Assembly (NCBI GenBank): GCA_903856295.1
Contig: CAIOBP010000120.1
Span: 1 to 57,864 of the forward strand
Reading direction: 5' to 3'
From: an uncultured Rhodospirillales bacterium
GTDB lineage: Bacteria; Pseudomonadota; Alphaproteobacteria; Azospirillales; Azospirillaceae
Length of the DNA stretch: 57,864 nucleotides
The translations under genes were made by a program, and so were the position numbers. The notes under the pieces are model-generated. The model did not search any database, had not been told where the DNA came from, and worked only from the letters and a program-made list of their open reading frames with translations. Below are positions 3,014 through 55,126 of this stretch, one piece after another (the stretch's first letter is position 1; every line of letters begins with the position of its first letter).

Positions 3014-4030
3014 GTCCGCGCGGTTGGCGGCGTGCCAGCGCAGTGTCCAGTACAGGCGCCGCAGCCTGAGTGACGCGTGCTCGCCGAAAAGGCGTTTCGT
3101 GGTCTCCCTGAGCAGGGTTTTCGCGTCCTGCCTGGTGGTTTTCGGCCTGAGGGTCCATTGCCAGCCGTTTTTCAGGTCGTGAGGGGCGGCCGCCGTGCAG
3201 GATTTGCAGAGCGTGGCGCAGGAATGCCCAAGTTTCATGTTCTCCTGTCGCAGGCGATTGAGCGGCTCGCTCTTGAATAAATCATAGTAATCCTGCTCAA
3301 TGAGATTGCCGATAATGTAGGTGAGACCGTAATCCTGGCTGCACAAGGCGACATCGCCATTCGGTAGCAGGACATTGTGGTCATAGAAGGGGCTCTTGCC
3401 GCAGGAAACCGCGGTCGTGTGATCAGGTGTATCCTGAAGGCTGAGCGGGTCCGGGCTGGTGGTCTTGTCAATGTTGCCGGCGCGCGTTTGCCCGTAGAAT
3501 GATTCCGTTCTTATCCGCAGATCGTCCAGCGAGGCGGGCAGGCGGCCGGACCGGTCCATGGTCATGAGGTGAAACCGTGAAATGCCGCATTCCGTGCCAT
3601 AGGCATAGAATTTCGCAAAAACAGCGCGCCACTCCTGAGACTCCGTCCAGCCCCGCATGTTGCCGCCGCGATCGGGCAAGTGCAGGCACAGGGCGTCGAC
3701 CTGATCGTCGTGGGCTCTCAGGAGGGCAAGTATCGAGTCGGCATTCGTTGCGGTGATTCCGGTCAGCGTCGTATAAAGTCCGACTTTGAAGCCGGTCTCC
3801 AGGGTGTGTTTCAGGAATGCCGTGCAGTCCGGGTTGCTCCAGGGCTCGGCCATGCCCGAAAAATCAATTCTGACATGAGCGGGGACCTTGCCCAGACTTT
3901 TTCTGAAGGTGTCGAATGTCAGATATTTGGGGCCGTTTCGCGTGTCGTAGGCTGTCCGCAGTGTTTTTTGTGGACAGAATGTGCACATCAGCGGGCACCC
4001 GATCCGCGTTGTGATCTCGAGTGTGGCCAT
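3005..4030 (-). CDS. radical SAM protein with SPASM-like C-terminus
   Basis: A 341-residue protein. CPLMCTFC near residues 11-18 is the CxxxCxxC motif that binds the S-adenosylmethionine [4Fe-4S] cluster. A C-terminal set of cysteines (VSCGKSPF, VALCSQDYG, GHSCATLCKSC) fits an auxiliary SPASM-type cluster, and the text NGDVALCSQDYG...GNL is typical of SPASM proteins. The frame continues to 4399, but ATG 4030 puts the cluster motif at its usual N-terminal place. It sits at the edge of the glycan locus, divergent from a polymerase-like gene, so a role in modifying a sugar or lipid-linked intermediate is possible but unproven. The substrate is unknown. Confidence 0.85.
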   Translation of the reverse strand: MATLEITTRIGCPLMCTFCPQKTLRTAYDTRNGPKYLTFDTFRKSLGKVPAHVRIDFSGMAEPWSNPDCTAFLKHTLETGFKVGLYTTLTGITATNADSILALLRAHDDQVDALCLHLPDRGGNMRGWTESQEWRAVFAKFYAYGTECGISRFHLMTMDRSGRLPASLDDLRIRTESFYGQTRAGNIDKTTSPDPLSLQDTPDHTTAVSCGKSPFYDHNVLLPNGDVALCSQDYGLTYIIGNLIEQDYYDLFKSEPLNRLRQENMKLGHSCATLCKSCTAAAPHDLKNGWQWTLRPKTTRQDAKTLLRETTKRLFGEHASLRLRRLYWTLRWHAANRADKR

Positions 4031-4314
4031 CAAGTGTGCATCCTTGCCCGGTTTCCCTGACTGACGGGACCAGTGGACATTAGTCTGGTGCCCAATGTCT
4101 CGCAAGTCACTAAAACTGCACCGCGGATAGGGCTGTGGGCGGTGGGCGAACCCCAGGCCCGCGCATTCCTGCGTTGACGGTGGGGATGGCGGGCCGCTAT
4201 AGGGTCGGTCAGAGCGTGTTCCGAAGTGTGACGCCGTTCTAAAATGGTCAGATGGGCCTGCGCGCCCGGCGGTTTGATGACCGCGTTTGTAACAGCCCCA
4301 ATAAGGCGGCTCGG

Positions 4315-5676
4315 ATGAAAAGCCTGCCCCAGGCGCTTTGCCTGTTCGTGATCGGTCTGCTGCTGCTTGGTTACGTGCTGGGCGGTAAAGGTTTCGCACA
4401 TATCGGGGTAGAGCCCATCTACATCGGCGAGGCGGCTTTGGCCGTCAGTCTGCTTTTGTTTCTGATGGCGCCAAATATCAAAAATGTGTTCTGGCTGCCT
4501 GAGGCCTGGATCGTACTGGGGTTGGATTTCTGGTGTCTGCTTCTGACCCTGCCCTTCGTTCGAGAATATGGTGTTAACACCTTCCGCGATGCCGCCATTT
4601 ATGGGTATTCCATTTTTTCCTTTATTATTGCACTCCATATTTCAAATTATAAAGTTATTATGACTATATGTCGTGCTTATCTTAGGGTTCTTCCGTTGTG
4701 TATCATCATTATACCAGTTCTATTGTGGGCGCAGCCTGATGACCCCGATATGATGACGGATGAGTTGCCGCTCATTTACTTGAAGGCCGGAGATGTGATG
4801 GTTCATCTGGTCGGCGCCTTGTCGTTTGCGTTGCTGGGGTTGCGCTCTGCCATTGTCCCCGTCACGAGTTGGGCTGGGAATATCGTCTGGCGGTTGTTCT
4901 GGGTGGCATTGGTGGTCTCTTTGATGTGGACGGTTGCCATGAGTCGTGGCGGGCTGATGGCTATGATCTGTGGCCTCTCCGTGATCGCGGTGTATGGTGT
5001 AAGCTCTCGGAAATTGATTGGTTTTGCGGTTGCGGTGCTCACGTTTCTCGCTGTGCTGGCCGCATTCGATGTCCATTTCGAACGTGATCGGCGTGATATT
5101 TCTCCCTGGCAGGTTATTGAGAATGCCGTCAGTATTGTCAGCCTCGGGACTGGCGAGGATATCGACACCTCTGGCGATCTGGAAGGAACCGCGCGCTGGC
5201 GCTTGGAGTGGTGGACAGAAATCGTAGGATACACGCTATTCGGCGACTATTTCTGGATGGGTAAGGGCTTTGGGATCAATCTCGCGGATGATGACGGCTT
5301 TCAGGTTGATATTGATGAAGGGTCTCTGCGCAGCCCGCACAACGGGCATCTCACCATTTTGGCGCGTGCCGGGGTGATTGGTCTGACGCTATGGGTGTTG
5401 TTTCTTGGGGCGTTCGCGGTGGCACAGGTACGCATGGCGGCACGGATGCGCGAGATGGGCTTGGTCGTCTGGCAACGGCTGAACCTGTGGGTCCTGTCAT
5501 ACTGGGTGACGGCGGTGGTCAACGCCACGTTCGACGTCTATCTCGAGGGGCCGCAGGGCGGCATCTGGTTCTGGTCGATCACCGGATTTGGCCTGGGCCT
5601 GCTGGCGTATCAGCGGCGGGTGTTGGGGGCCGGGCCGCAGACGCCGGAGGCGGTGTCTGCACAGCGTTTCTGCTGA
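4315..5676 (+). CDS. O-antigen ligase/polymerase-like (Wzy/WaaL) membrane protein
   Basis: A 453-residue polytopic membrane protein with about 10-12 hydrophobic segments and one long periplasmic loop (roughly residues 250-350). The loop is followed by SPHNGHLTILARAGVIGL, the HNxxL...xGxxG signature of the Wzy_C/O-antigen ligase family. Such proteins polymerise or ligate lipid-linked glycan repeats at the periplasmic face. ATG 4315 was chosen because the first membrane segment follows at once; the frame is open from 4252. It is divergent from the radical SAM gene and tail-to-tail with the GT-C gene, 8 nt apart. The coding sequence is more AT-rich than its neighbours, especially around 4600-4740. 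It is one of two such proteins in this locus. Confidence 0.85.
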   Translation: MKSLPQALCLFVIGLLLLGYVLGGKGFAHIGVEPIYIGEAALAVSLLLFLMAPNIKNVFWLPEAWIVLGLDFWCLLLTLPFVREYGVNTFRDAAIYGYSIFSFIIALHISNYKVIMTICRAYLRVLPLCIIIIPVLLWAQPDDPDMMTDELPLIYLKAGDVMVHLVGALSFALLGLRSAIVPVTSWAGNIVWRLFWVALVVSLMWTVAMSRGGLMAMICGLSVIAVYGVSSRKLIGFAVAVLTFLAVLAAFDVHFERDRRDISPWQVIENAVSIVSLGTGEDIDTSGDLEGTARWRLEWWTEIVGYTLFGDYFWMGKGFGINLADDDGFQVDIDEGSLRSPHNGHLTILARAGVIGLTLWVLFLGAFAVAQVRMAARMREMGLVVWQRLNLWVLSYWVTAVVNATFDVYLEGPQGGIWFWSITGFGLGLLAYQRRVLGAGPQTPEAVSAQRFC

Positions 5677-5684
5677 TGCGGTCA

Positions 5685-7028
5685 TCATGAGAACGGGTTG
5701 AGAAATGCATAGCATGCCGACAGGACTACGAAGGATAGTAGTACAATATTTCCCAGTCTTTCTTCACGATGAGGCTGGAGGGTACAGAACGTAATCATGG
5801 CAATCATCATCGCGGGCAGCTCATAGTATTTTTGATATATGATGTATGAGTTGGTTATGGCAACGGCAAAGGATATTGCGATAAAAAGCGGAGATGCCAC
5901 TATGAATATGCTTTCAGGGTCTGGTGTGTTTTGGGGCGTTTTCACCCTGATCAAGGCTTGGTGGAGGCAGGCAAGGCCCAGGATGATCAGGAGAACCATG
6001 ATCATGTTGAATCCGCCTATGCTGGAAGCAAACGATGAGAGCCTCCAGACGATGCCATCATGGGAGAAACCGCCCAGCGTTTTCCCCTGAAGGGGGGCGA
6101 TTTCCAGGATGGCGAGAGACAATGCAAGCAGAATTGCGGTCTTGTATAATAATGATATGATTTTCTGTTCTGGTGTTAAAAGAGTTCTCAATAGAATAAA
6201 AGGCGCCGAATATAATCCGATGCAGGCGATGAAGAAGGAAACGGATGCTGGTTGCATGCCGAGATGCATCTGAAATCTTGGTGGGTTCAGGCCTCCCCAC
6301 AACACAGCGAGGGCGGCTAATGGCGCCAATGACACTGCCAGAGCCGTTGATCTGAGTATAAGTCTGCCAGCTTCCGTGCGGCCTCGCAGAAACATGTCAT
6401 ACACTATGGACAACGCAATAACAGCGGCAATCCAGATGTAAAGCTGTCGCGTCATGATGGCGAGGCATGAGAAAATTACGCTCAGAATGAAATATTTGTT
6501 GCACTCCCGATCAAGGCTGATGTGGAGCGATGCCAGGGAGGCGATGGCAAACAGGATACCGATTGCATCGGTCATGACAATGAAGGAAGAGCCGTAATTG
6601 TATGGCGCAAGGTAGAATGTGAGGGATAATAAGACTGCTCTCGGTATGCTCATTCTGAATGGTCCGGAGAACCAATAGAATAAGAGTGAGGCACCAAGAT
6701 ATCCGATAAACGCATTGAAAAGCCGCAAGCCGGATATCTCTGGCCCTATAATTTTAGCAATTGCGGCAAATATGATGTGGCTCAAGGGAGTTGTTGCCGA
6801 GCTGTAATCTGAAAGATTGATGTATGGAAAAGACCGGTAAAACTCCATGATAGTCGGATAGTGAAAGTCGGGCTCGTCCATCCAATGGAAGGTATGGAGG
6901 GGAGTTGAGAGCCCATGCAAAAATATTATCGGAACAATCGCCGGGATCGATAGGATCAGCAATGCACCGAAGGTGTTTATGACCTGATGATTTCTGGGGT
7001 ACTCGGCGCCCCGGGCGGGTGGGCTCAT
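5685..7028 (-). CDS. GT-C fold membrane glycosyltransferase, ALG10/ArnT-like
   Basis: A 447-residue protein with roughly ten membrane segments. The first periplasmic loop carries HWMDEPDFHYP followed by an LSDYSSATTPLSHIIFA stretch. This resembles the acidic first-loop motif and TTPPG-type segment of DIE2/ALG10 and of other GT-C transferases that use polyprenyl-phosphate sugars as donors. GC content is clearly below the window average. The gene runs tail-to-tail with the preceding polymerase-like gene and head-to-head with the DPA-like cassette. Because that cassette would make a polyprenyl-phosphoryl pentose, this is a reasonable candidate for the transferase that uses it; that is inference from context only. 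Confidence 0.75.
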   Translation of the reverse strand: MSPPARGAEYPRNHQVINTFGALLILSIPAIVPIIFLHGLSTPLHTFHWMDEPDFHYPTIMEFYRSFPYINLSDYSSATTPLSHIIFAAIAKIIGPEISGLRLFNAFIGYLGASLLFYWFSGPFRMSIPRAVLLSLTFYLAPYNYGSSFIVMTDAIGILFAIASLASLHISLDRECNKYFILSVIFSCLAIMTRQLYIWIAAVIALSIVYDMFLRGRTEAGRLILRSTALAVSLAPLAALAVLWGGLNPPRFQMHLGMQPASVSFFIACIGLYSAPFILLRTLLTPEQKIISLLYKTAILLALSLAILEIAPLQGKTLGGFSHDGIVWRLSSFASSIGGFNMIMVLLIILGLACLHQALIRVKTPQNTPDPESIFIVASPLFIAISFAVAITNSYIIYQKYYELPAMMIAMITFCTLQPHREERLGNIVLLSFVVLSACYAFLNPFS

Positions 7029-7212
7029 GGTGGGGGCATCCGTGGATCAGCGATGATCGAAGCGAGGCCGGAAGGCTACCACGGTCGGCGCGGCTCTGAA
7101 AAGTGTCATCGAACAACATGATGGCACAAGCTCAGAGCGGAGATGATCGTGCCGTGAACGGGAAGGGCTGGAACGAGAAAACGCAATGGGATAAAAAGAA
7201 CTGCGCTGAAGT

Positions 7213-8148
7213 ATGACTCTGAATGTTCATGGGCGGGGGGTGGATGTGAATGGTGGCGACCCCCGGCATCCTGTGCCCGCCGACTATCTGCGGGCCCTCC
7301 GTCCCCAGCAGTGGCTCAAGAACGGCTTGATTTTGGTGCCAGGGTTGGCCGGTCATGTGACGGCGCCGGGGGCTTATGCCGTCGCCGCGCTCGCTTTCGT
7401 CAGTTTTTGCCTGTGCGCCTCGGCCGCCTATGTGCTGAACGACCTTGCCGACATCGCCAACGACCGGGAGCATGCGGCCAAGCGCCTGCGTCCCTTCGCC
7501 TCGGGAGCGCTGCCGGCCGGCCACGGCTGGTGCCTGATCCCGGTTTTGTTGGCGGTCGCGCTGGTTTTGGCGTTCCGGGTCTCGCCGTCCTTCGTCGCGG
7601 TGCTGGCCGGGTATAGCCTGGGCACGCTGGTCTACACGTTTTGGTTGAAGCGGGTGCTGGTGCTCGATGTGGTGGTGCTGGGCTGTCTTTATGGCCTGCG
7701 GGTGGTCGCGGGCGGGGTCGCCTTCGCCGTGCCGCTGTCGGAATGGCTGGTGGCGTTTTCGGTGTTCCTGTTTCTGTGCCTGGCTTTGATCAAACGTTGC
7801 GCCGAACTGGCCGGACGGGTGCGGACGGGGCGGGGCGATCCGCCCGGCCGTGCCTACCGGCTCGACGATTTGCCGGTGCTGGAAGCGCTGTCCGCCGCCA
7901 GCGGCTTTTCCGCCATCGTGGTGCTGGCGCTTTATCTCAACAGTCCGGCGGTGGCGCGGTTGTATTCATGTCCGCAGGCGCTGTGGGGGATCGGGCTGGT
8001 GCTCGCCTATTGGCTGTGCCGCATGCTGATCCTGACCCACCGTGCCGAGATCAACGATGACCCGGTCGCTTTCGCCGCCACCGACGGCGTCAGTCTGGTT
8101 TGCGCGGGGCTGGTGCTGGTGATCGGCCTGGGGGCGAGCCTGTCATGA
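7213..8148 (+). CDS. UbiA-type polyprenyl-phosphate phosphoribosyltransferase (DPPR synthase-like)
   Basis: A 311-residue integral membrane protein. The RPQQWLKNGLILVPG start, NDLADIANDREH (NDxxDxxxD Mg-binding motif) and KRLRPFASG match the subgroup of UbiA proteins that attach phosphoribose from PRPP to decaprenyl phosphate, the Rv3806c type. This is the first step toward polyprenyl-phosphoryl arabinose. The next two genes encode the matching oxidase and reductase and overlap in ATGA fashion, so the three are translationally coupled. The 5-phosphate phosphatase of the pathway is not seen here. Confidence 0.85.
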   Translation: MTLNVHGRGVDVNGGDPRHPVPADYLRALRPQQWLKNGLILVPGLAGHVTAPGAYAVAALAFVSFCLCASAAYVLNDLADIANDREHAAKRLRPFASGALPAGHGWCLIPVLLAVALVLAFRVSPSFVAVLAGYSLGTLVYTFWLKRVLVLDVVVLGCLYGLRVVAGGVAFAVPLSEWLVAFSVFLFLCLALIKRCAELAGRVRTGRGDPPGRAYRLDDLPVLEALSAASGFSAIVVLALYLNSPAVARLYSCPQALWGIGLVLAYWLCRMLILTHRAEINDDPVAFAATDGVSLVCAGLVLVIGLGASLS

Positions 8149-27994: not shown

Positions 27995-28413
27995 GGTTCT
28001 CCCCAGCCCAAGACCACACACAAAAAGACGGCCAGACCGGCAGTCCGGTCGGTCGGGTCATTTCCTTAAGTCGTTTGAGCCAAAGCAAATTTCGCGCCAG
28101 GAAATCAGCGTGTGATTTCAGCCGGATAATTTGAGTCTGCCCGTGAAGTGGGCATGGGAAAAGTCAGTCTGTGCAAATTGTGGGCAGTGTTTTGGAGTCA
28201 ATCTGAGCAATCATATAGATTACCGTCCTGGATTTGCGGCGCCGTCATGGAAGTGCTCTTGATTTCGGCACAGTACATTGTGTGTAGCCAAAAGACTAAG
28301 CCATAATATTGTGAGATTCCGGTGTCTATCGCGGCTTTAATGTTCATTACCTCTGGTTGGCACGGCGATTGCGTTCGTTTTTTCTTGCGTATGAATGGAG
28401 AGGGATAAAGCCA
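27995..28413. other. 419-bp intergenic region with regulatory signals
   Basis: No gene seen. It holds a small hairpin on the minus-strand leader of the ODP operon (GACCGG/CCGGTC, 28035-28050), an AT-rich stretch, an imperfect palindrome at 28270-28281 (ACAGTACATTGT) and the sigma-54 promoter listed separately. Confidence 0.6.
28358..28372 (+). promoter_or_regulatory. sigma-54 (RpoN) -24/-12 promoter
   Basis: TGGCACGGCGATTGC matches the RpoN consensus TGGCACG-N4-TTGC at every conserved base and with exact spacing. Transcription would start near 28384, about 30 nt before the ATG of the small gene at 28414. The imperfect palindrome about 80 bp upstream is at a plausible distance for an enhancer-binding protein. 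Confidence 0.8.
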
Positions 28414-28635
28414 ATGCCAACAATGTTCGCCAGCCACAATGGCGGTGTTGCCAATACCGCGATCGTCAAACGCGATGCTCCGGAGTCCGAGATGGCGGCC
28501 GTGGCCGGCTCGGCGTCGCACTCGGTGCCGCTGCTGTCGATTGTCGGAGGACAGCTCGGCCGGGTCACGGCCGCCATCAATTCCGTTGGCTGGAATCACC
28601 ATCAGGTGCCGCGGAGCGAGCGCGTCACGACCTGA
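28414..28635 (+). CDS. 73-residue protein of unknown function behind a sigma-54 promoter
   Basis: The ORF starts MPTMFASHNGGVANTAIV and ends in SERVTT. A purine-rich GGAGAGGG ribosome-binding stretch lies a little far upstream (about 10 nt). The protein has no signal peptide or membrane segment and a mixed Ala/Val/Ser composition; I do not recognise a family. The chief support for it being real is the excellent sigma-54 promoter immediately upstream and lack of any other gene it could serve. It converges with modC. Confidence 0.5.
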   Translation: MPTMFASHNGGVANTAIVKRDAPESEMAAVAGSASHSVPLLSIVGGQLGRVTAAINSVGWNHHQVPRSERVTT

Positions 28636-28706
28636 AGTCCCGCGACACCGGAGGTTTGCCGATAGATGCAACTGCGCGGCCCGTTTCAGGGTTTCGCCAT
28701 GATCGA

Positions 28707-29843
28707 TCAGGCTCCGGTGTCGCTCTTGCCGGCTCCTTCCAGAGCGAAGTCCACCAGCGCCACGCCCTTGATCTGGGCGAAGACCGGCTGGCCGGGGGCC
28801 AGACCGAGGCTGTCCCAGGATTTGCGGGTGACGCGGGCGAGCAGGCGGGCGCCGCGCCCATCGCTGCCCAGCGCCACGGCAACCATCATTTGCACGCCGT
28901 TCTGGGCTTCGGCGGCCAGGATGCGGGCGGGCAGGGTGTTGAGAATGGTGCTCCCCGCCGCCGGCGCGCGGGCCAGACTGACGTCGGAGGCGGCGATGCG
29001 GACGCGCCGGGTCGCGCCCGGTGTCTCCGGATGGCCCGGCACCAGCAGCCGGCCGCCGGCCAGGGCCAGGGTCGCGAGGCCATAGTCCGGATCGAAGTGC
29101 TCGACCACCGCCGGCAGGGTGACGCCGGCCTCGGGCATACGGGCGATCGGCAGCGCCGGGTCGGATTGAAGCTCCTCCAGCGGTCCGGCCGCGGTCACCC
29201 GCCCGCCTTTCAGCAGCACCAGATGATCGGCCAGCCGCTCGACCTCGGCGATGTCGTGGCTGACATAGAGCACCGGCACCGACAGTGCGGTGTGCAACCG
29301 CTCGAGATAGGGCAGAATCTCGTCCTTGCTGAAGCGGTCGAGGGCGGCCAGGGGTTCGTCCATCAGCAGCAGCTTGGGTTGCGACAGCAGCGCCCGGCCG
29401 ATGGCCACCCGCTGGCGCTCGCCTCCGGAAAGGTGCAGCGGCGCCCGTTCGAGCAGGTGGTCCAACCCGAGCAAGCCGGCGACCTCGTCGAAACCAATGG
29501 TCTCCCGCAGGCCGCGCCCGGTGATCCGGCGATGGCCATAAAGCAGGTTGGCGCGCACCGAGAGGTGGGAAAACAGGCTGGCTTCCTGGAAGACATAGCC
29601 GACCGGCCGCCGGTGGGTCGGGCGGACGTCGCGGCCGTCCTGCCAGACCTCGCCGTTCAGCGCGAAATAGCCCTCATCCGGCCTGTGCAGGCCGGCGACG
29701 CAGCGCAGCACCGTGGTTTTGCCGCAGCCGGAGGGACCGAACAGCGCCGTGATCCCCCGTGCCGGCGCCTCGAAGCCGACATCGAGGACAAAGCCGCCGA
29801 GCCGGCTCCGGAAGCGGGCTTCGATAGTCGGAGCGTCGCTCAT
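28707..29843 (-). CDS. modC: molybdate ABC transporter ATP-binding protein
   Basis: A 378-residue ATPase that powers molybdate import. [10 protein letters not shown] is Walker [17 protein letters not shown] the ABC signature, [12 protein letters not shown] Walker B, and [14 protein letters not shown] the switch. The C-terminal 130 residues carry a MOP/TOBE domain ([32 protein letters not shown]) that binds molybdate, distinguishing ModC from other importers. Its ATG overlaps the modB stop. It would supply molybdenum to the molybdoenzyme encoded 15 kb downstream. Confidence 0.95.
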
Positions 29844-30508
29844 GGCCCGGTCCGCCCGATGCGCTTTTCCAGCACCATCATGCTCAGGATCACCAGGAAG
29901 GAGAAGGCGAGCATGCCTCCGGCCAGCAGATGGGCGGTGCTCCAGTCGCCGGTTTCCACATAGTCGAAGATGGTCACGGACAGCACCCGGGTCTGGCCGG
30001 GAATGTTGCCGCCGATCATCAGCACGACGCCGAACTCGCCGACGGTGTGGGCGAAGCCGAGCACGGCGCCGGTGAGGAAGCCGCGCCGCGCCAGTGGCAG
30101 CGCCACGGTGAAGAAGCGGTCGAGCGGCCCGGCGCCCAGGGTCGCCGCCACCTCGTGCGGCCGGTCGCCGATCGCCTCGAAGGCGTTGCGGATCGGCTGG
30201 ACCACGAAGGGCATCGAGTAGAGCACCGAACCGATCACCAGTCCGGGAAAGCTGAAGGCCAGCGAATGGGCGCCCCACAGCCCGGCCAGCCAGCCGCCGG
30301 GGCCATGGGGGCCGAGCAGCAGCAGCAGATAGAAGCCGAGCACGGTCGGCGGCAGCACCAGCGGCAGCGCCACCACGGTGGCCACCGCCTCCTTCCACCA
30401 CACCGGGCTGCGCGCCAGCCACCACGCGAGCGGCGTGCCGACCACCAGCAGAATCGCGGTGGTCAGCGCCGCCAGGTGCAGAGTCAGCAGGATCGGCTGG
30501 ACGAGCAT
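29840..30508 (-). CDS. modB: molybdate ABC transporter permease
   Basis: A 222-residue inner-membrane protein with five to six helices. The EAA-type loop that docks the ATPase is visible as [25 protein letters not shown], split here as [10 protein letters not shown] then [27 protein letters not shown] and [20 protein letters not shown] are conserved ModB segments. It lies directly between modA and modC, 4 nt after the modA stop and overlapping modC by 4 nt. Confidence 0.95.
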
Positions 30509-30512
30509 CGGG

Positions 30513-31271
30513 TCAGGGCGCCGGGGCGGTGCCGTAGCCGTAGGTCTCGATCACCTTCAGCGCCTCCGGCCCCTTGAGGAAGTCGAGGAACGCCTTGGCC
30601 ACCGGATCGGCGGCGCCCTTGGCCAGCAGCACGGCATCCTGACGGATGGGCGCGTGCAGCGTCTCCGGCACCAGCCAGGAGGAGCCCCCGGCCTTGGCGA
30701 TCACCTGAGACAGCGCCACGAAGCCCAATTCGGCGTTGCCGGTGTCGACGAACTGGAAGGTTTGGGCGATGTTGTTGCCCTGGACCAGCTTGGGCGCGAG
30801 CGCCTCGTAGAGACCGAGCTTTTGCAGCGTCTCGACGGCGGCGGCGCCATAGGGCGCGAGCTTGGGGTTGGCCACCGCCAGCTTTTCGAAACCGCCGCTT
30901 CTCAGCACCGCCTCGCTGGCCGGGAGGGCCGAGCTTTTGCCCCACAGCACCAACCGGCCAATGGCGTAGGTGAAGCGCGAACCGGCCACCGCCAGCCCCT
31001 CGCCGAGCAGCTTGCCCGGTGTTTCCGCGTCGGCGGCGAGCAGCACGGCGAACGGCGCGTCCTGCTTGATCTGGGTGTAGAACTGGCCGGTCGAGCCGAA
31101 GCCCAGCTCCACCGCGTGGCCGCTCCTGGTCTCGAACGCCTTGGCGATTTCCTTGGCCGGTTCGGCGAAGTTGGCGGCGACCGCGACCAGGGGGCCGGCG
31201 GCGGCGGCGCGGCCCGAGAGCGCCAGCAGAACCAGCGCGGCTGGTAGAACCAAACGGAACAGGCTTTTCAT
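30513..31271 (-). CDS. modA: periplasmic molybdate-binding protein
   Basis: A 252-residue protein with a Sec signal ([19 protein letters not shown]). The mature start [21 protein letters not shown] and the segment [19 protein letters not shown] resemble ModA: VAANF and the GSTGQ oxyanion-binding loop. Later motifs [15 protein letters not shown] are also family text. ATG 31271 is preceded by a GGGG-rich ribosome site and gives a proper signal peptide, so the in-frame start at 31346 was not used. It is the first gene of modABC. Confidence 0.95.
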
Positions 31272-31594
31272 CGCAAGACCCCCCTTTTTGGGCTTTCGCC
31301 CGGTGAGCGGACTGATAACGCTGGCATCGTAATGTAGGTGTGCCAAGATGCCACGGACATTTTCCGGAAAAATGTCACCGGCATGTCAAATCGCAATGCG
31401 CGGCCGCGCCCGACCGTGTACACGAACGGCGGGGATCGATGGCTGTCGGGACGGGGGGGAAAGTTCGGCGGTTGATGGTGCGGGAGCCTCGGCGGCTTGC
31501 GGCCGGATCATCGCGGTATCGCGTCGATAACAGTGAATATTGCCAGAAGCAGGCCCGAGACCAGCGCCGCATGCAGGGGACGAATGGCTAGCAT
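31272..31594. other. divergent intergenic region between modA and mamX
   Basis: 323 bp without a supported gene. It contains the palindrome listed at 31356-31376; no canonical ModE-type Mo box (TATA-rich arms) was found. Confidence 0.6.
31356..31376. promoter_or_regulatory. 21-bp inverted repeat, candidate operator
   Basis: GACATTT (31356-31362) and AAATGTC (31370-31376) form a perfect 7-bp arm pair around TCCGGAA. A further ATGTC half-site follows 13 bp later. The site is about 85 bp upstream of modA and 219 bp upstream of mamX, where a dimeric regulator could act on either gene. The protein that binds it cannot be named. Confidence 0.5.
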
Positions 31595-32413
31595 ATGAAG
31601 ATCAACTTTCCAGCGCGCCAGGATATCGCCCCCTGGATCATGGCTTTTGGCATTGTCTTTGGCATGGCGATGTTTTTGATGGCCGTGTTCAACAAGAATC
31701 CCTGGAGCGATCATACATACGCCAAAGCGTCTCCGATCATCGCCGGCATGCCGGGGCCTCACCGGGATGGCCGCGAGAAGATGGTTTGTTCCAGTTGTCA
31801 TATCGTGGTCCCGGCAAAACAGGTCGCCGGTCCCAAGAGTTGGGTGCTGCCGATCGTGCAAGGGACGAAGGCGCCGCATGTCGACGGTCGTGAAAATGCC
31901 CCGTGTGCCAATTGCCATACAATATTGGCCAAGGATATCGGGACGGCGCCGACCGGGCCTCAACTGCGTCCGGCGAAGAGTTCCACTCCGGCATCACCAA
32001 AAATGCAGACTGTCGCCATTCCCGTCGATCTGAATGGCCCGCCACCGGCGGAGATATTGTCTCCGGAAGCCCATGAGTGGTTTCAGGCCTACCGCTTCCA
32101 GGGGAACGTTTTGCGAGTCTCGGGCACGGGCAGCCGGTCTGTGTGGGGCGATGTCTATGTGCTGATCGATGACGGCATCAATGCGCCGGGGTGGCTCGAT
32201 CTTGCTCCCCGCCTGTTCCTGCAATCCGGGGGCTGCTTTGTTCGTCCCGGCATGTTCGTCAAGGGCACGGCGTATCACGATCCAGCTGGTGGCCCCGGCA
32301 GTCTCGGCTACGCCAAAAGTATCATGGTGAATGGTGAGTTTTGCGCTCTGCGGGACTCGCACCTTAATGGATTGTGGGAAGAAGTTGGTGGAGCCGATGC
32401 CGAAGAGCCTTGA
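31595..32413 (+). CDS. mamX: magnetosome c-type cytochrome MamX
   Basis: A 272-residue protein anchored by one N-terminal membrane segment (about residues 12-32). It has two magnetochrome motifs: PHRDGRE then CSSCH (C65, C68, H69), and PHVDGRE then CANCH (C104, C107, H108). The paired HxDGRE...CxxCH pattern is specific to magnetosome cytochromes (MamE, MamP, MamT, MamX). Two motifs, a C-terminal OB-like domain (about 140-260) and immediate linkage to mamZ identify it as MamX, which in Magnetospirillum is 269 residues and takes part in redox control of magnetite formation. The gene overlaps mamZ by 17 nt. GC content is lower than in surrounding genes. Confidence 0.9.
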   Translation: MKINFPARQDIAPWIMAFGIVFGMAMFLMAVFNKNPWSDHTYAKASPIIAGMPGPHRDGREKMVCSSCHIVVPAKQVAGPKSWVLPIVQGTKAPHVDGRENAPCANCHTILAKDIGTAPTGPQLRPAKSSTPASPKMQTVAIPVDLNGPPPAEILSPEAHEWFQAYRFQGNVLRVSGTGSRSVWGDVYVLIDDGINAPGWLDLAPRLFLQSGGCFVRPGMFVKGTAYHDPAGGPGSLGYAKSIMVNGEFCALRDSHLNGLWEEVGGADAEEP

Positions 32414-34511
32414 GAATCCCGCATCCGCGCCTGTCCAGCGGTTCGGCCGGCTACAGTGGAACACGATATACTTGCTGTCGTGTTCTGGTGCCATGGTTGC
32501 TGCGCTTACAATCAGTATTCAGCCGCTACTGCTTGATACGGTGTTTGGTATCGCCTTCGAGAAAGAGGGGGCAATCAACGCCGATATTCAAGTCTTCGCG
32601 GAAATCGCCTCGATCCTTGGGGTCGGTTGGTTCGGATTGCTGTCCGACCGTATCGGACGTCTTCCGATCATCAAGGGCGGCTTTCTGGCAATTTGCGCGG
32701 GCACGCTGTTGTCGCTGATCAGTCTCAATGTCGGTCTGACCGTCGGGACGGGAGCGCTGGCCCTGCTCTATGTCACGCGCGCGCTTATTTCGGGCGGTGC
32801 CGATGCCGTTCAGCTTGAGTTGTCAACACTGGTTGGCGATGTTTCGGAGTTTCACAACAGACCAAAATTGCTGACCGACGTCATTTTCATGATGGTCTTT
32901 GGCGGAACCGTTCTTTCTTCTATCATCATGCAGGTTGCCGAACAAAAAAATGGCATCGTGTTGATTGTCGCGATTCCGATGCTGGCCGGCGTGTTCGGTT
33001 ATTTTATGTCTAAGAACAATCTGTATGATATCTCTGCGAGAACTGACAGCCGGGAGAACCCCTTGCGTCAGGTGTTCCGGTTTGTCAGCCGTGATCCTCG
33101 AATGCAGTTGGCTTTTGTCGCGACATTTTACACGCGTGCCGACGTAATTGTTTTGAGCCTGTTCTATACACTCTGGTGCATTTCGGTCTCCGACATTGTT
33201 GGCGTGACGCGGTTGTTCGCGGCCACCCACGCCGCGGTTCTGATCGGCCTGCTGGGGGCGAGCGTCCTGGCGTCGATTCCGATATGGAAAATGGTCATCG
33301 AACGCCAAAGCCGGATATCGGCGATCGGCGCCAGCTTGTCCATGGCCGGCATCGGCTATCTTTCACTTGGTTTGTTCGCGAATCCGTTCAATTGGCTGAT
33401 CATCATGCCAATGGTGCTCATTGGAATTGGTCATGCCGGCTGCATGGTTACTTTGCAGGTTCTGACTGTCGACATCGCACCTCGAAGGATACTTGGTGCT
33501 GTTCTTGGCATGGCCTACCTGACCGGCGGTGCCGGCATCATCATGCTGACGCAAAGCGGCGGATATTATTTCGACGCCGTTGGACCCCGGGCGCCCTTCA
33601 TGCTGATGGGAACGGCCAAGCTCCTGGTCACGCTGTTCGCCGGTTGGCTGATCTTGAACGGCATTGATGAAACCGTCGATCATACAATGAAGATCAGCCG
33701 GAAGGTCGACTGGAAGCCCCTGGTTTTCATGACGGCCTCTTTGCCTTTCATATGGCTGCTCGGGCGATTCTTGATCGGCGGCTACATGCTTGGCCCCTCA
33801 TTGACCGAGACCCCTGTCGGTTTCATCAATCGCTATTTGGGGGACTGGGCTTTTACCTTCATGATTATTTCTCTGGCCATGCGTCCGGTTCAAGAAATCA
33901 CCGGTATCAGCACGCTGGCGAAATACCGCAGGATGGTCGGGCTTTATGCGTTTTTCTATGCCGTTCTGCACGTCATCGCCTTCATCGCCCTGGAGTGGGC
34001 GTTCAATCTCGATGACATGATCGCCGACGTTTATAAAAGACCGTTCATCATTCTGGGGTTGATTTCCTTCATGCTGATGGTGCCCCTGGCGGTCACCTCG
34101 ACAAACGCCCAGATCAAGCGCCTGGGCGGAAAGCGTTGGAAGCAACTGCACCGCTCGGTCTATGTCATCAATGTCTTGATTGCCCTACACTTCATCTTTG
34201 CCGCCAATCACGAAAACGGTGAACCATATATATATGCGGCAGTCGTGCTGGCTCTGATTCTGTATCGGACGAAACTGTCCGATAAGTGGCCGCTGTTGAG
34301 AAAGCTGGGGTCGGCATTCACGGTTTTTCGTGTGCAGTATCGATCGCGGATATGTACCTTATGCACCGGTTTTCTTGGAAAGCTGTCCACCAAGAGGGGA
34401 TGTTATGGTGGTGAGGGCTGTGGCGCGGCTATTCAGGCCCAGGTGCTCCAGGATGAGTTCGCCCCGCCGAAGCCTCGTCCGGATAACGCGCCGTCCGAGG
34501 CCAACCGCTGA
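32397..34511 (+). CDS. mamZ: magnetosome MFS/ferric-reductase fusion MamZ
   Basis: A 704-residue fusion protein. The first 430 residues are a 12-helix major facilitator domain (LLSDRIGRLPIIKGG is the loop 2-3 signature). The remainder, from about 450, is a YedZ/MsrQ-like heme-binding ferric reductase membrane domain: DWAFTFMIISLAMRPVQE, YAVLHVIAF, WKQLHRSVYVINVLIALHF with the expected histidines. This MFS plus ferric reductase arrangement is that of MamZ; MamH has the MFS part only. It probably moves and reduces iron at the magnetosome membrane. Start ATG 32397 overlaps mamX. The last 80 residues form a Cys- and Lys-rich tail (CTLCTG, RGCYGGEGC), not obviously part of either domain. Confidence 0.9.
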   Translation: MPKSLENPASAPVQRFGRLQWNTIYLLSCSGAMVAALTISIQPLLLDTVFGIAFEKEGAINADIQVFAEIASILGVGWFGLLSDRIGRLPIIKGGFLAICAGTLLSLISLNVGLTVGTGALALLYVTRALISGGADAVQLELSTLVGDVSEFHNRPKLLTDVIFMMVFGGTVLSSIIMQVAEQKNGIVLIVAIPMLAGVFGYFMSKNNLYDISARTDSRENPLRQVFRFVSRDPRMQLAFVATFYTRADVIVLSLFYTLWCISVSDIVGVTRLFAATHAAVLIGLLGASVLASIPIWKMVIERQSRISAIGASLSMAGIGYLSLGLFANPFNWLIIMPMVLIGIGHAGCMVTLQVLTVDIAPRRILGAVLGMAYLTGGAGIIMLTQSGGYYFDAVGPRAPFMLMGTAKLLVTLFAGWLILNGIDETVDHTMKISRKVDWKPLVFMTASLPFIWLLGRFLIGGYMLGPSLTETPVGFINRYLGDWAFTFMIISLAMRPVQEITGISTLAKYRRMVGLYAFFYAVLHVIAFIALEWAFNLDDMIADVYKRPFIILGLISFMLMVPLAVTSTNAQIKRLGGKRWKQLHRSVYVINVLIALHFIFAANHENGEPYIYAAVVLALILYRTKLSDKWPLLRKLGSAFTVFRVQYRSRICTLCTGFLGKLSTKRGCYGGEGCGAAIQAQVLQDEFAPPKPRPDNAPSEANR

Positions 34512-34574
34512 TCCCGAGCGCGCCCCTCGACATGAGCGGCCGCGCGCCGGTATCGCCGGAGACGAGGGTCAGGA

Positions 34575-36686
34575 CTAGGTTATCTTGGCGTTCCGGATGA
34601 AGGGAGCATAGGCCCGGTCGGAAACCTGGATGTGCTCGACCAACCAGCGTTTGACGAACTCCATGGTTTCGATAATCAGGCTATTGCTTTCGCTTTCCAT
34701 GTAGCGATCACGAATGCTTTTTGCCTTGTCGACGAACATCCGGTGCTCGTCTCGTTGGGCCTGGAGCCCCTGATACTTGACCGAGGCCAGAGCTTCCTCT
34801 TCACGGCGGAAGTGGTTGACCGTGTAGTCGATCAGGGCGTCCAGGGTGCGCAAGATGGTGGCCTTTGCGCTGCCATCGCGCATCGCCGTGGCCAGATCGT
34901 TGAAAAGACGGAACAATTGCTTGTGGTCATCGTCGAGGGCGGGATGGTTGACGCTCAGGCTATCGCGCCATTCGAGCGTCGGCACATCGGAAGACGCCTC
35001 GTTGGCCCCCCTGACGACCTGACGGACATCCGCGAGGAACCGTGTAACGGTGTTCTGCATCTGCTCGGTTTCGCCATAGACCTGATTTGCGGCAATGGCT
35101 ACGTTATCGACAATCTTGACGGCATCCTGGGACACCCGTGTGACGTCTGATATGCGCTCGGTCACCAATCTCGTGCTTTCCGCCGCTTCCCCGGCGTGGC
35201 TGGCAATCTCTTTGGTTGTGCTCTCCTGGCGTCCCATCTCGGATGCGATGGTGTTGGCGATTTCGTTGATCGATCCGATGGTGCGGGAAATATTGCCGAT
35301 CGCCGACACGGCTTCGGCGGTTTCCTGCTGAACCTGGGAGATGCGGGCGGCGATATCCTCGGTCGCCTTGCCGGTCTGGTTGGCCAGATTCTTGACCTCG
35401 CCGGCCACCACCGCGAAACCCTTGCCGGCATCACCGGCCCGGGCCGCCTCGATGGTGGCGTTGAGCGCCAGCAGGTTGGTTTGACTGGCGATATTGGAAA
35501 TCAGCTTCAAGACCTCGCCGATGTCGGCGACGGTCTGGCTCAGGCTCTGGATGCGCTGGTTGGTCGCTCCGGCCTGATCCACGGCGCTCGCCGCGACGAC
35601 GGCGGCGCGCGACACTCGCTCCCCGATCGAACCGATGCTGACCGCCAGGTCGCCCGCGGCCGAGGACACCGCCCGGGCGTTGCCGTTGGCCTGATCGGCG
35701 GCGGAGGAGGCGAGGGACGCGGTCTTGAAGGTTTCGGAAACGCCCGCGCTCAGGGCGTCGGAGGCGCTTGAGACCTCCTTCACCGAGTTGGAGACCGAAC
35801 CGAACAGACGGGCCACCGCGCCCGAAAAATCGTTGGCGAGAACCTCGATTCTCTGCTGGCGCCCGGCCCGCTCGGCCTGGGCCTGCTGGGAGCGGATGCG
35901 CTCCATCTCGATGGCGTGGTCCTTGAAGACCTGAACCGTTGCCGCCATCGAACCGATTTCGTCATTGGCGTCAATGTGGGGCACGGTCACCGAGAGATCG
36001 CCGTCCGCGAGGGTTTTCATCGCCTCGGTGATGCGGCGCAACGGAGCGACGATTCTGCGCGAGACGATCAGGGATGCCACGACAATGCCGCCGGTAATTC
36101 CAACAATCGTCAAGATAATGATCAGCCAGAAATCCCGGCGATACTCCGAGGCAACCTCGTCTCTCAGGCGCAGGACTTCCCGTTCATTGGCGGCGGACAG
36201 GGTTTTGATTTTGTCATTGAGAGCGGTTCGTACCGCCCGGTTGGCGTCATTGTCCCCGAAGGTCCGGGCCTCGTCCAGACCGACCTCCCGGGACAGGCGG
36301 ACCAGTTCGGTGCGGAAGCGGATGAACTCTTCGGTCGCCTGTTTGGCGGCATCGAAGGCGCTCCGTTGTTCTCCGGGATAGGCCTCGCTCCAGTTGCCGA
36401 GGGCGGCGCGCAGACGCTCAAGGCTGGCCAGCAGCGGTAAGGCGTACTTTTCCGATTCGCTCCGAGATTTCGACATGTAGATCCCGCGCGAATCCATCAC
36501 CACCGCGAGAATCAGGCCGTTGACCCGCTCGCCGAGGATGGCGCCCCTCGAGGCTCCCTCCATTTTCGTCACGACCTCCTCGTAGGAGGTGAGAATCCGG
36601 ATGCCATACAGGCTCACGGTGGCGGCGGCCAGGGCCAGGATGGCCATCGCGAGGTAGACGCGAGCGCTGATACTCTTCGTGTTCAT
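34575..36686 (-). CDS. methyl-accepting chemotaxis protein with C-terminal hemerythrin domain
   Basis: A 703-residue chemoreceptor. A membrane helix (about 8-30), a short periplasmic 4-helix region, a second helix near 185-210, HAMP, then the MCP signalling domain with the tip [18 protein letters not shown] and [16 protein letters not shown]. The C-terminal 135 residues are a bacteriohemerythrin: [28 protein letters not shown] and [10 protein letters not shown] supply the His/Glu/Asp ligands for a diiron site. Such domains sense oxygen or deliver it. ATG 36686 was chosen over a TTG 12 nt upstream. It converges with mamZ and is the last gene of a sensory gene group. Confidence 0.95.
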
Positions 36687-36814
36687 CGATCTCTCCAAAC
36701 GCGTCGTTGTCGGACGAATGCTTCGCGGTTGATCTGCCTATTTTGTAATCCGACTCTCTAAAAAATTCCGGCCGGGCTGGCGCTGGCAGTCAGGTGCTCG
36801 GCTCTGGGAAAATT

Positions 36815-38317
36815 TCAAGCCAGGCCCGCCTTGCGCGCGCTCGCGCCCTTGCCCGGCATCGCTTCGGGGAAGAGGTGGCGGATGTGCTGGGCGACATCCT
36901 CGGCAAAGTCGCCGTCGTCAAGGCCCTTGAAGGCACGGGGCTGCCCCTTGGGCGCCTGCTGCCGCTGGGCGATATTGCGGCTGATGACCGGCAGGGCCTC
37001 GGAACTCGTCTTGAGCAGTTCGGCGAGCAGATCGCGGCTGAGTTCGCAGAGCAAAACCGGAGTGCGGGTGCGCACCGTCGATGCGTGCGCCTCGCCCTGA
37101 AAAATCACCGCGGGATCGAACAGGTCGCCGGGCCGCAGCATCGGCGGCGTCTCGCCGCGCGCCGGTTTGCGCCGGCTGGTCTCGGCCGAGAGCAGCCCCT
37201 CCAGCACCAGATAGAGGGTGGTGCCCGCTTCGCCGGCCTGGGCGATCAGCTTGCCGGCGACCTCTTCCCGCAGCCGGGCGCCGCGCGCCAGCACCAGAAG
37301 GTCGCCTTCGGCAAGGCCGCGGAACAGCTCCGTGGCCCCGATTAGCGCGCTCAGCCGGGTGGCGTCGGGCAGATGCAAGCCCTCGTGGGGCGTGTCGGCC
37401 ACGGCCTCCTGGCGCGGCAGGGCGGGCTCCAGCCCGGCCTGGGCCAGATGAATCAGCACGTTCTGAAGCACCGCCGGACGGGCATTGACCAGATATTGCC
37501 ACTCGGCCTTGTAGAAGATGGCGTATTCGACCCCCTCGAGCTTGATCGCCTTCACTTCGATCCAGGGCTGGTGGGTCGAGGGACCAACCAGCTCGGTCAG
37601 CGCCTCGAGCGCCGCGGCCTGGAGGATGCGCACGGCGCGGCCCAACGGGACGCGGGCATCCAGGGTCACGGTGGCGAAGCGGTAGCTTGAGGGTTCGGGC
37701 TGGCTGAAATTGGTGATCGTGCACGAACTGAACTTGCTGTTGGGCAGGATCACGACATCGCCGTAGAAGTCGCGGATGCGGCTGGTGCGCCAGCTGATTT
37801 CCAGCAATTGGCCGACGATCGCGTCGTCTCCCGACTTGTGCAGCCGGATATGCTCGCCGATCCGCACCGCCCGGTCGATGTTGAGGGCGATGCCGGCGAA
37901 GACGTCCTGAAGCAACTCCTTCAGCGCCATGCCGAGCACCAGTCCGGCGACCCCGGATGCCGCCCACAGCACCGTCAGATCCTGGTCGAAGACGATGCCG
38001 GCGCAGGCCGAGGTCGCGATCAGATAAATCACCAGTCCGGAAATCTGGCTGAGCAGGCGCGGCACCGGCGTCCCGGTGGCACGGACGACGATGCCGTCGA
38101 AGATGACATAGCGGATGATGCGCTGGGCCAGAATTGCCAGCGACAGAAAGGCGATGACCCCGAGAATGTACTTCAGGGCCTTGCGCGTGCTGTCCACCGC
38201 CGCCAGACCGAAGGTCTGGTAGGTGTCGCCGCCCAAATAAAAGAACGCGAAGATGGCGCAGCACACCAGCAGCGGCGCAATGATCTTGCCGATGATTTGC
38301 CGGAGGGACTCGTTCAT
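36815..38317 (-). CDS. MscS-family mechanosensitive channel with cyclic nucleotide-binding domain
   Basis: A 500-residue protein. Four to five N-terminal helices lead into the pore helix and beta domain (SGVAGLVLGMALKELLQDVF; DRAVRIGEHIRL; ISWRTSRIRDF; VVILPNSKFSS), all standard MscS text. Residues about 340-470 form a cNMP-binding beta-roll (LFRGLAEGDLLVLARGARL, GTTLYLVLEGLL, LRPGDLFDPAVIFQGEA, ASTVRTRTPVLL). The fusion suggests gating tuned by a cyclic nucleotide; it belongs to the MscK/bCNG-like branch. It lies 10 nt downstream of the MCP gene on the same strand. Confidence 0.9.
   Translation of the reverse strand: MNESLRQIIGKIIAPLLVCCAIFAFFYLGGDTYQTFGLAAVDSTRKALKYILGVIAFLSLAILAQRIIRYVIFDGIVVRATGTPVPRLLSQISGLVIYLIATSACAGIVFDQDLTVLWAASGVAGLVLGMALKELLQDVFAGIALNIDRAVRIGEHIRLHKSGDDAIVGQLLEISWRTSRIRDFYGDVVILPNSKFSSCTITNFSQPEPSSYRFATVTLDARVPLGRAVRILQAAALEALTELVGPSTHQPWIEVKAIKLEGVEYAIFYKAEWQYLVNARPAVLQNVLIHLAQAGLEPALPRQEAVADTPHEGLHLPDATRLSALIGATELFRGLAEGDLLVLARGARLREEVAGKLIAQAGEAGTTLYLVLEGLLSAETSRRKPARGETPPMLRPGDLFDPAVIFQGEAHASTVRTRTPVLLCELSRDLLAELLKTSSEALPVISRNIAQRQQAPKGQPRAFKGLDDGDFAEDVAQHIRHLFPEAMPGKGASARKAGLA

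Positions 38318-55051: not shown

Positions 55052-55126
<75 letters not shown>

Follow-up and report, generated by a model that had tools for sequence, protein, structure and literature searches.

Do mamX and mamZ belong to a magnetosome system where they lie apart from all other magnetosome genes, among ordinary chromosomal neighbours? The question is raised by a stretch of 57,864 nucleotides (the whole of which is hereafter termed the window) from an uncultured Rhodospirillales bacterium placed in the Azospirillaceae (assembly GCA_903856295.1, contig CAIOBP010000120.1). An initial annotation, made from the letters alone, had proposed a detached mamX–mamZ pair here and left three options: rearranged magnetosome genes, a relic in a non-magnetic strain, or a redox module used outside magnetosomes. 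Based on searches of the window, of the remainder of its genome and of related genomes, we are highly confident that both truly belong to the magnetosome genes of an Azospirillaceae-type bacterium that is probably magnetotactic and has these genes distributed over several blocks of its chromosome; rearrangement is the best fit of the three options. The pair has probably moved separately from the mamAB block, and was possibly also acquired separately.

Identity of the mamX–mamZ pair

The first gene, mamX (31595–32413, forward strand), encodes a protein of 272 amino acids (aa) comprising a hydrophobic N-terminal segment, two magnetochrome domains and a MamS-like C-terminal part. The magnetochrome family PF18509 matched it in two stretches (E 1e-22 for the whole protein), corresponding to domain 1 with the motif HRDGRE...CSSCH (31733–31816, forward strand; 49 bits) and domain 2 with HVDGRE...CANCH (31850–31927, forward strand; 43.5 bits), and the CxxCH motif of each was present in 4/4 MamX sequences. 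The same family yielded no match in any of the 14 control genomes. The best NCBIfam family was MamX (NF040996; 345 bits, E 2.5e-103, model positions 1–263 of 264), followed by MamS with 68 bits. A PDB sequence search produced no match that could be used (best E 0.38; MamP 4jj0, E 3.3), and an AlphaFold model of MamX built from four sequences, with a mean predicted local distance difference test (pLDDT) score of 34, was not used.

The second gene, mamZ, follows directly on the same strand. Its longest open reading frame (ORF) opens at the first ATG, at 32331, and comprises 726 aa. The ATG at 32397 is the more likely start, because GGAG lies just upstream, because this context is kept both in the congener Umea3_bin-0647 (G050; CAIZDL01; locus L057) and in a related contig, L072, and because it yields a 17-nt overlap with mamX. 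From this start, mamZ (32397–34511, forward strand) encodes 704 aa. Pfam matches revealed a fusion of a major facilitator superfamily (MFS) transporter domain (MFS_1, PF07690; 32493–33542, residues 55–404 of the 726-aa frame) with a ferric reductase-like membrane domain (Ferric_reduct, PF01794; 33840–34181, residues 504–617), both on the forward strand, and the NCBIfam MamZ family NF040998 matched with 936 bits against a cut-off of 650, with weaker matches to MamH (384 bits) and MsrQ (152 bits). The reductase-domain histidines H547, H607 and H620 are common to the window and the congener; we take them to be haem ligands, as in MsrQ/YedZ. Beyond the family model, MamZ carries a cysteine-rich C-terminal tail (34353–34421, forward strand), which is poorly conserved in the congener, although several of its cysteines are kept in the otherwise different tail there. 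The proposed identification and coordinates of the two genes were correct, as was their overlap.

MamZ exceeded its cut-off in 2/82 genomes of the order, namely this one and the congener; at E 0.001 matches appeared in 67/82, those besides these two being partial. MamX was found at E 0.001 in 3/385 genomes of the class, at full length only in the window's own. The other two matches were partial, one covering 101 of 264 positions in the MamS-like region (G422; E 1e-18, plus a weaker second place) and one covering 37 positions of a frame interrupted by stops (G451), so that no larger MamX tree was possible. Among 72,556 plasmid records MamX had no match and MamZ had 55, each of which covered less than 80% of the query; all eight matches that were listed fell in the C-terminal half, and five of them were annotated as msrQ. 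A contig scan for MamZ relatives, which used two peptide patterns only and may miss relatives, returned 2 loci.

Magnetosome genes elsewhere in the genome

The initial annotation had proposed to search the rest of the genome for further magnetosome genes. A second magnetochrome-positive contig (C134) carries mamT (NCBIfam MamT 197 bits, cut-off 200) followed by mamH (493 bits, cut-off 300), and at its very end (position 6955 of 6957) the 3' tip of mamS, whose last 46 aa are 83% identical to the congener. Two further tips of mamAB genes were recovered: the 3' tip of mamO at bases 4791–4918 of the 4920 of C138 (last 44 aa, 91% identical to the congener), and the 5' tip of mamP at bases 3–106 of C243 (82% identity across 106 aligned positions). 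Further genes on C243 are feoB, an mms6-like one (NCBIfam Mms6, 60 bits for a cut-off of 200), a small DUF4870-like one (20.1 bits for a cut-off of 25) that we assume to be mmsF-like, another small one that occupies the feoA position, lacks an NCBIfam match and is named by position alone, and a Cu/Zn-efflux-type permease located between feoB and the mamP tip. An Mms6-like protein (L067:4548–5168, reverse strand) shows a long Ala/Lys/Gly repeat region preceding its LG-rich segment. Directly 3' of the mamO tip lies a gene for a pentapeptide-repeat protein with a weak PilZ match (L068:3240–4718, reverse strand); a pentapeptide-repeat protein is also encoded upstream of mamX in locus L100 of another bin, AlinenLipids_bin-2225.

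The search succeeded for mamT, mamH, the mms6-like gene and feoB, all four of them complete, and for the three tips, but not for the mamAB interior (mamE, K and M with the bulk of O; the bulk of P, then A, Q, R and B with the bulk of S), of which nothing was found in the assembly. Two DNA queries from the congener, a 7.3-kb stretch ending just after mamS and the mamE-to-mamO stretch, matched this genome at four sites, of which two are flanks without mam genes (C141, C238) and the others are contig tips (C243, C138). As the mamP, mamS and mamO tips all break off at contig ends, the interior is probably missing from the draft assembly and not from the organism. In the congener, the positions of the mamP and mamS tips are ~4.2 kb apart. 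MamE-family matches on four further contigs (C25, C209, C47, C136) were set aside as ordinary Deg/HtrA-type or PDZ proteins because no magnetochrome match was found there and because the family was positive in 12/14 control genomes.

A direct comparison is provided by the congener, in which, as in the window, mamX–mamZ lies on a contig (C65) without any other magnetochrome or MamZ-family gene and in the same overlap context. The identities between the two genomes are 79% (79.4) for MamX, 80% for MamZ, 84% for MamT and 78% for MamH, compared with 92% for SerA. As a yardstick SerA failed for AlinenLipids_bin-2225, which was one of 4/18 genomes without a match at 1e-50. The congener carries mamE (partial), K, M and O on C43 and mamP, A, Q, B, S and T on C153; five of these ten mamAB genes (P, Q, B, K, M) reach the NCBI cut-offs, and mamR was assigned by position. 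The block from the mms6-like gene to feoB is common to both genomes. In contrast, the congener pair is flanked by an exonuclease-domain gene on one side and ATP synthase genes on the other, its mamH follows feoB (on C99) and not mamT, and the genes that precede mamP and follow mamO there are on other contigs in the window's genome. Since junctions and neighbours differ between the genomes, magnetosome blocks change place within the genus.

Both species share a 31-bp palindromic repeat (L058:6078–6108; L070:4849 and 7256), one copy of which ends a congener contig just after mamH. Furthermore, a long Pro/Ala-rich or acidic low-complexity ORF lies between mamE and mamK in two genomes (L060:1306–3051; L099:12254–13450); the one in L060, of 581 aa, has no NCBIfam or Pfam match. 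This ORF occupies the place taken by mamJ in Magnetospirillum.

Composition and possible separate history of the pair

The GC content of mamX–mamZ is 55.7%, against a mean of 65.5% (standard deviation 3.5%) for 1074 intervals of equal length over ~136 kb of host DNA, as the initial annotation had noticed in general terms; 37/1074 intervals have an equal or lower value. The GC content at third codon positions (GC3) is 0.66 for mamX and 0.67 for mamZ, compared with 0.76–0.87 for mamT, mamH, the mms6-like, mmsF-like and feoA-position genes and feoB of the same genome. The low GC of the pair is therefore real and sets it apart from the remaining magnetosome genes that were recovered here. A GC content under that of the pair is also seen elsewhere in the window, at about 3800–7400, and the eight lowest intervals start at 3801–4501.

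Could the pair then have been gained by horizontal transfer from a magnetotactic bacterium of lower GC, separately from mamAB? Such a history would add to the interpretation as genuine magnetosome genes and not replace it. Besides composition, including a GC3 below that of six other magnetosome-linked genes, evidence for it comes from L072, a contig of AlinenLipids_bin-2225 (G462; CAIYCT01) with the order mamH–mamX–mamZ. The window's MamZ is nearer to L072 (88% over 558 aa) than to the congener (80%), whereas for the MamH of this genome, encoded outside the window, the relation is reversed (52% against 78%). Nucleotide similarity opens at the mamX start codon in the comparison with the congener and two bases earlier in that with L072. 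In a concatenated MamX+MamZ tree the window grouped with L072, and the approximately unbiased (AU) test rejected the grouping with the congener (p 0.0125) as well as the third tree (p 0.024).

The tree comprises only four sequences, with a divergent copy from AlinenLipids_bin-2225 as one distant outgroup, and the single-gene trees are weaker: MamZ alone rejected the congener grouping (p 0.025) and not the third tree (p 0.11), and MamX alone rejected neither alternative (p 0.064 each). The MamX identities are near-equal (80.5% to L072, 79.4% to the congener). L072 may moreover be mis-binned or chimeric, because its GC is 49.7% against 57% in two other mam contigs of the bin, and its MamH could be a paralogue. 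Against a transfer also stand the congener pair, whose GC3 (0.60 and 0.64) is similar to that of several other mam genes there, and the stretch near 3.8 kb of the window, which is even lower in GC. Weighing these points, we regard horizontal gain of the pair as a plausible but somewhat less than even prospect. The separate origin suggested earlier from GC alone has gained partial support from composition and gene trees, tempered by the small number of sequences and the uncertain binning of L072.

In the bin that holds L072, mamAB genes lie in their usual order on another contig, and there is a second, divergent mamX–mamZ; compared with the congener proteins, the mamAB products of the bin are 39–61% and those of the second pair 51–71% identical. 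The divergent mamZ shifts frame at about 401–420 of L100, which points either to an error in sequencing or to a gene that is broken.

Intact genes or relic

A different explanation holds that magnetosome formation was lost and that mamX–mamZ, mamT, mamH and the mamP, mamS and mamO fragments are leftovers. It would account for an assembly that holds the three tips and no part of mamE, K, M, B or Q, and for a genus in which 3/5 genomes lack magnetochrome genes. Silent clusters are known from Rhodovastum atsumiense G2-11, which, according to PMC9938234, carries alphaproteobacterial clusters with the Azospirillaceae magnetotactic bacterium CCP-1 as closest relative, and is non-magnetotactic; in contrast to the window's genome, its clusters are described there as lacking mamX and mamZ.

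However, all three tips halt at contig ends (C243 position 3; C138 4918/4920; C134 6955/6957), as assembly breaks would. Moreover, mamX, mamZ, mamT and mamH contain no internal stops, and the ratios of nonsynonymous to synonymous substitution rates (dN/dS) between the two congeners, calculated by the Nei–Gojobori method (NG86), ranged from 0.04 to 0.16: 0.045 for mamX and 0.036 for mamZ (625 codons, tail excluded), both approximate because dS is saturated near 3, and 0.09 and 0.16 for mamT and mamH at dS values of 1.1 and 0.9, respectively. From these rates, mamX and mamZ look to be under purifying selection. With intact genes, dN/dS near 0.04 for the pair and other mam genes and tips in the genome, we consider a relic very unlikely.

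Several observations nevertheless weigh against genuine genes of a magnetotactic bacterium. MamX, MamT and the mms6-like protein all remain under the NCBI cut-offs, MamX falling short of a curated 400 bits, as does its relative in L072 with 329 bits; this value is taken here as an automatic naming threshold and not as a biological feature. Magnetochrome domains occur in 2/5 genomes of the genus, and 3/5 are without such proteins. The saturated dS limits the ratios for the pair, and the interior of mamAB is absent from the assembly and may have been truly deleted. Finally, in the model species itself the direction of electron flow through MamX and its partners were unknown in 2014, as stated in PMC3971196.

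Neighbouring genes and other features of the window

Directly upstream of mamX lies not mamY but a divergent gene for a modA-like binding protein (30513–31346, reverse strand), which is not part of the system, and modC/B/A-type genes form this flank. Directly downstream of mamZ lies not an ftsZ-like gene but, tail-to-tail on the opposite strand, a gene for a methyl-accepting chemotaxis protein (MCP) with a C-terminal hemerythrin domain (34575–36698, reverse strand), whose membership in the system is not shown, followed by an MscS-like channel and a second MCP. This neighbour scan agrees with the earlier description of modABC and chemotaxis flanks without adjacent mamY or ftsZ-like genes. Queries with a 16-protein set from the congener and a 14-ORF set from contig C528 of AlinenLipids_bin-2225 detected no mam homologues in the window beyond mamX–mamZ. 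The mamY family matched in 0/2 genomes (this one and the congener), yet the controls were silent as well, so its absence is not established; an ftsZ-like gene was absent among the neighbours scanned, a genome-wide search for it not having been made.

That the pair is a redox or transport module acting outside magnetosomes, in molybdate or chemotaxis physiology, would fit its modABC-type and MCP neighbours, one of these with a hemerythrin domain, but is highly improbable, since the congener pair adjoins ATP synthase genes instead, modABC (G048, G049, G050) and the MscS–MCP pair (G047, G049) occur in the genus on loci without mamX–mamZ, MamX is absent from the plasmid records and has no other full-length match in the class, and 3/3 genomes with mamX that were examined (this one, the congener and AlinenLipids_bin-2225, where one copy is perhaps mis-binned) carry other mam genes.

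The hemerythrin MCP places an oxygen- or redox-sensing taxis receptor beside a magnetosome redox pair, perhaps by chance; at 1e-20 no match to it was seen, either in the six loci examined or in the 20-kb mamX–mamZ locus of the congener. A promoter and terminator scan found 2 and 5 sites, compared with 1.9 and 4.0 in shuffled sequences. The region 28000–38000 contains 18 families of direct repeats and 13 inverted pairs; of the direct pairs that bracket mamX–mamZ, the closest (31141–31164 and 35254–35277; 24 nt, 79% alike) lies within the modA and MCP genes and was taken as chance. The sole tRNA of the window is located at 55052–55126, and a scan against viral contigs found no relative.

Discussion

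The pair resembles the mamXY operon (mamY–mamX–mamZ–ftsZ-like) of Magnetospirillum gryphiswaldense MSR-1 in having mamX directly followed by mamZ, a MamX with two magnetochrome domains and a MamZ that combines MFS and ferric reductase domains. It differs in the lack of adjacent mamY and ftsZ-like genes, the ordinary chromosomal flanks and the cysteine-rich MamZ tail beyond the family model. By analogy with M. gryphiswaldense, MamX would be a di-haem cytochrome anchored in the magnetosome membrane, which together with MamZ and the MamH encoded elsewhere would move iron and electrons through the vesicle membrane and keep Fe(II) and Fe(III) in the proportion at which magnetite, and not haematite, forms. 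This redox model is laid out in PMC3971196 and also in PMC3847676. The features it requires are found here, namely both CxxCH motifs, the reductase histidines and mamH at another site, and by the same analogy we infer the function; the pair would then work with neither mamY nor an ftsZ-like gene beside it.

A detached mamX–mamZ is a known kind of arrangement. Genes of the mamXYZ cluster are described as inserted into mamAB or scattered outside it in PMC9840458, and as lying at the mamAB margin or elsewhere in PMC12724286, which also reports horizontal exchange of mamAB and mamAB-2. The modest surprise is instead the possible separate history of the pair. AlinenLipids_bin-2225 illustrates it, with its mamH–mamX–mamZ contig and MamZ 88% identical to the window's, set against a MamH of 52%, a second divergent pair and a conventionally ordered mamAB contig. 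On a more tentative note, and rather doubtfully, mamX–mamZ might constitute a minimal two-gene redox cassette, exchanged among freshwater magnetotactic alphaproteobacteria independently of mamAB and landing at unrelated chromosomal sites. Among the open-access papers searched, we found no report of mamX–mamZ alone moving between lineages.

PMC11773610 reports magnetotactic Azospirillaceae as well as magnetosome clusters from several related lake genomes, with a clade within the Azospirillaceae that includes Umea3_bin-0647; the cluster of the genome studied here may already be drawn in the supplementary figures of that paper. The case also calls for caution, as a binned genome may seem to hold a detached fragment only, while the rest has probably been lost in assembly gaps. 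Our analysis adds a probable magnetotactic species to the Azospirillaceae-type bacteria of stratified lakes, some of which also make intracellular carbonate, and reveals that the neighbours of magnetosome blocks differ between two congeners. If the separate history of the pair is borne out, the redox part of the organelle would be exchangeable alone; if the pair moves as a cassette, the control of iron redox state in magnetosomes would be swappable between lineages.

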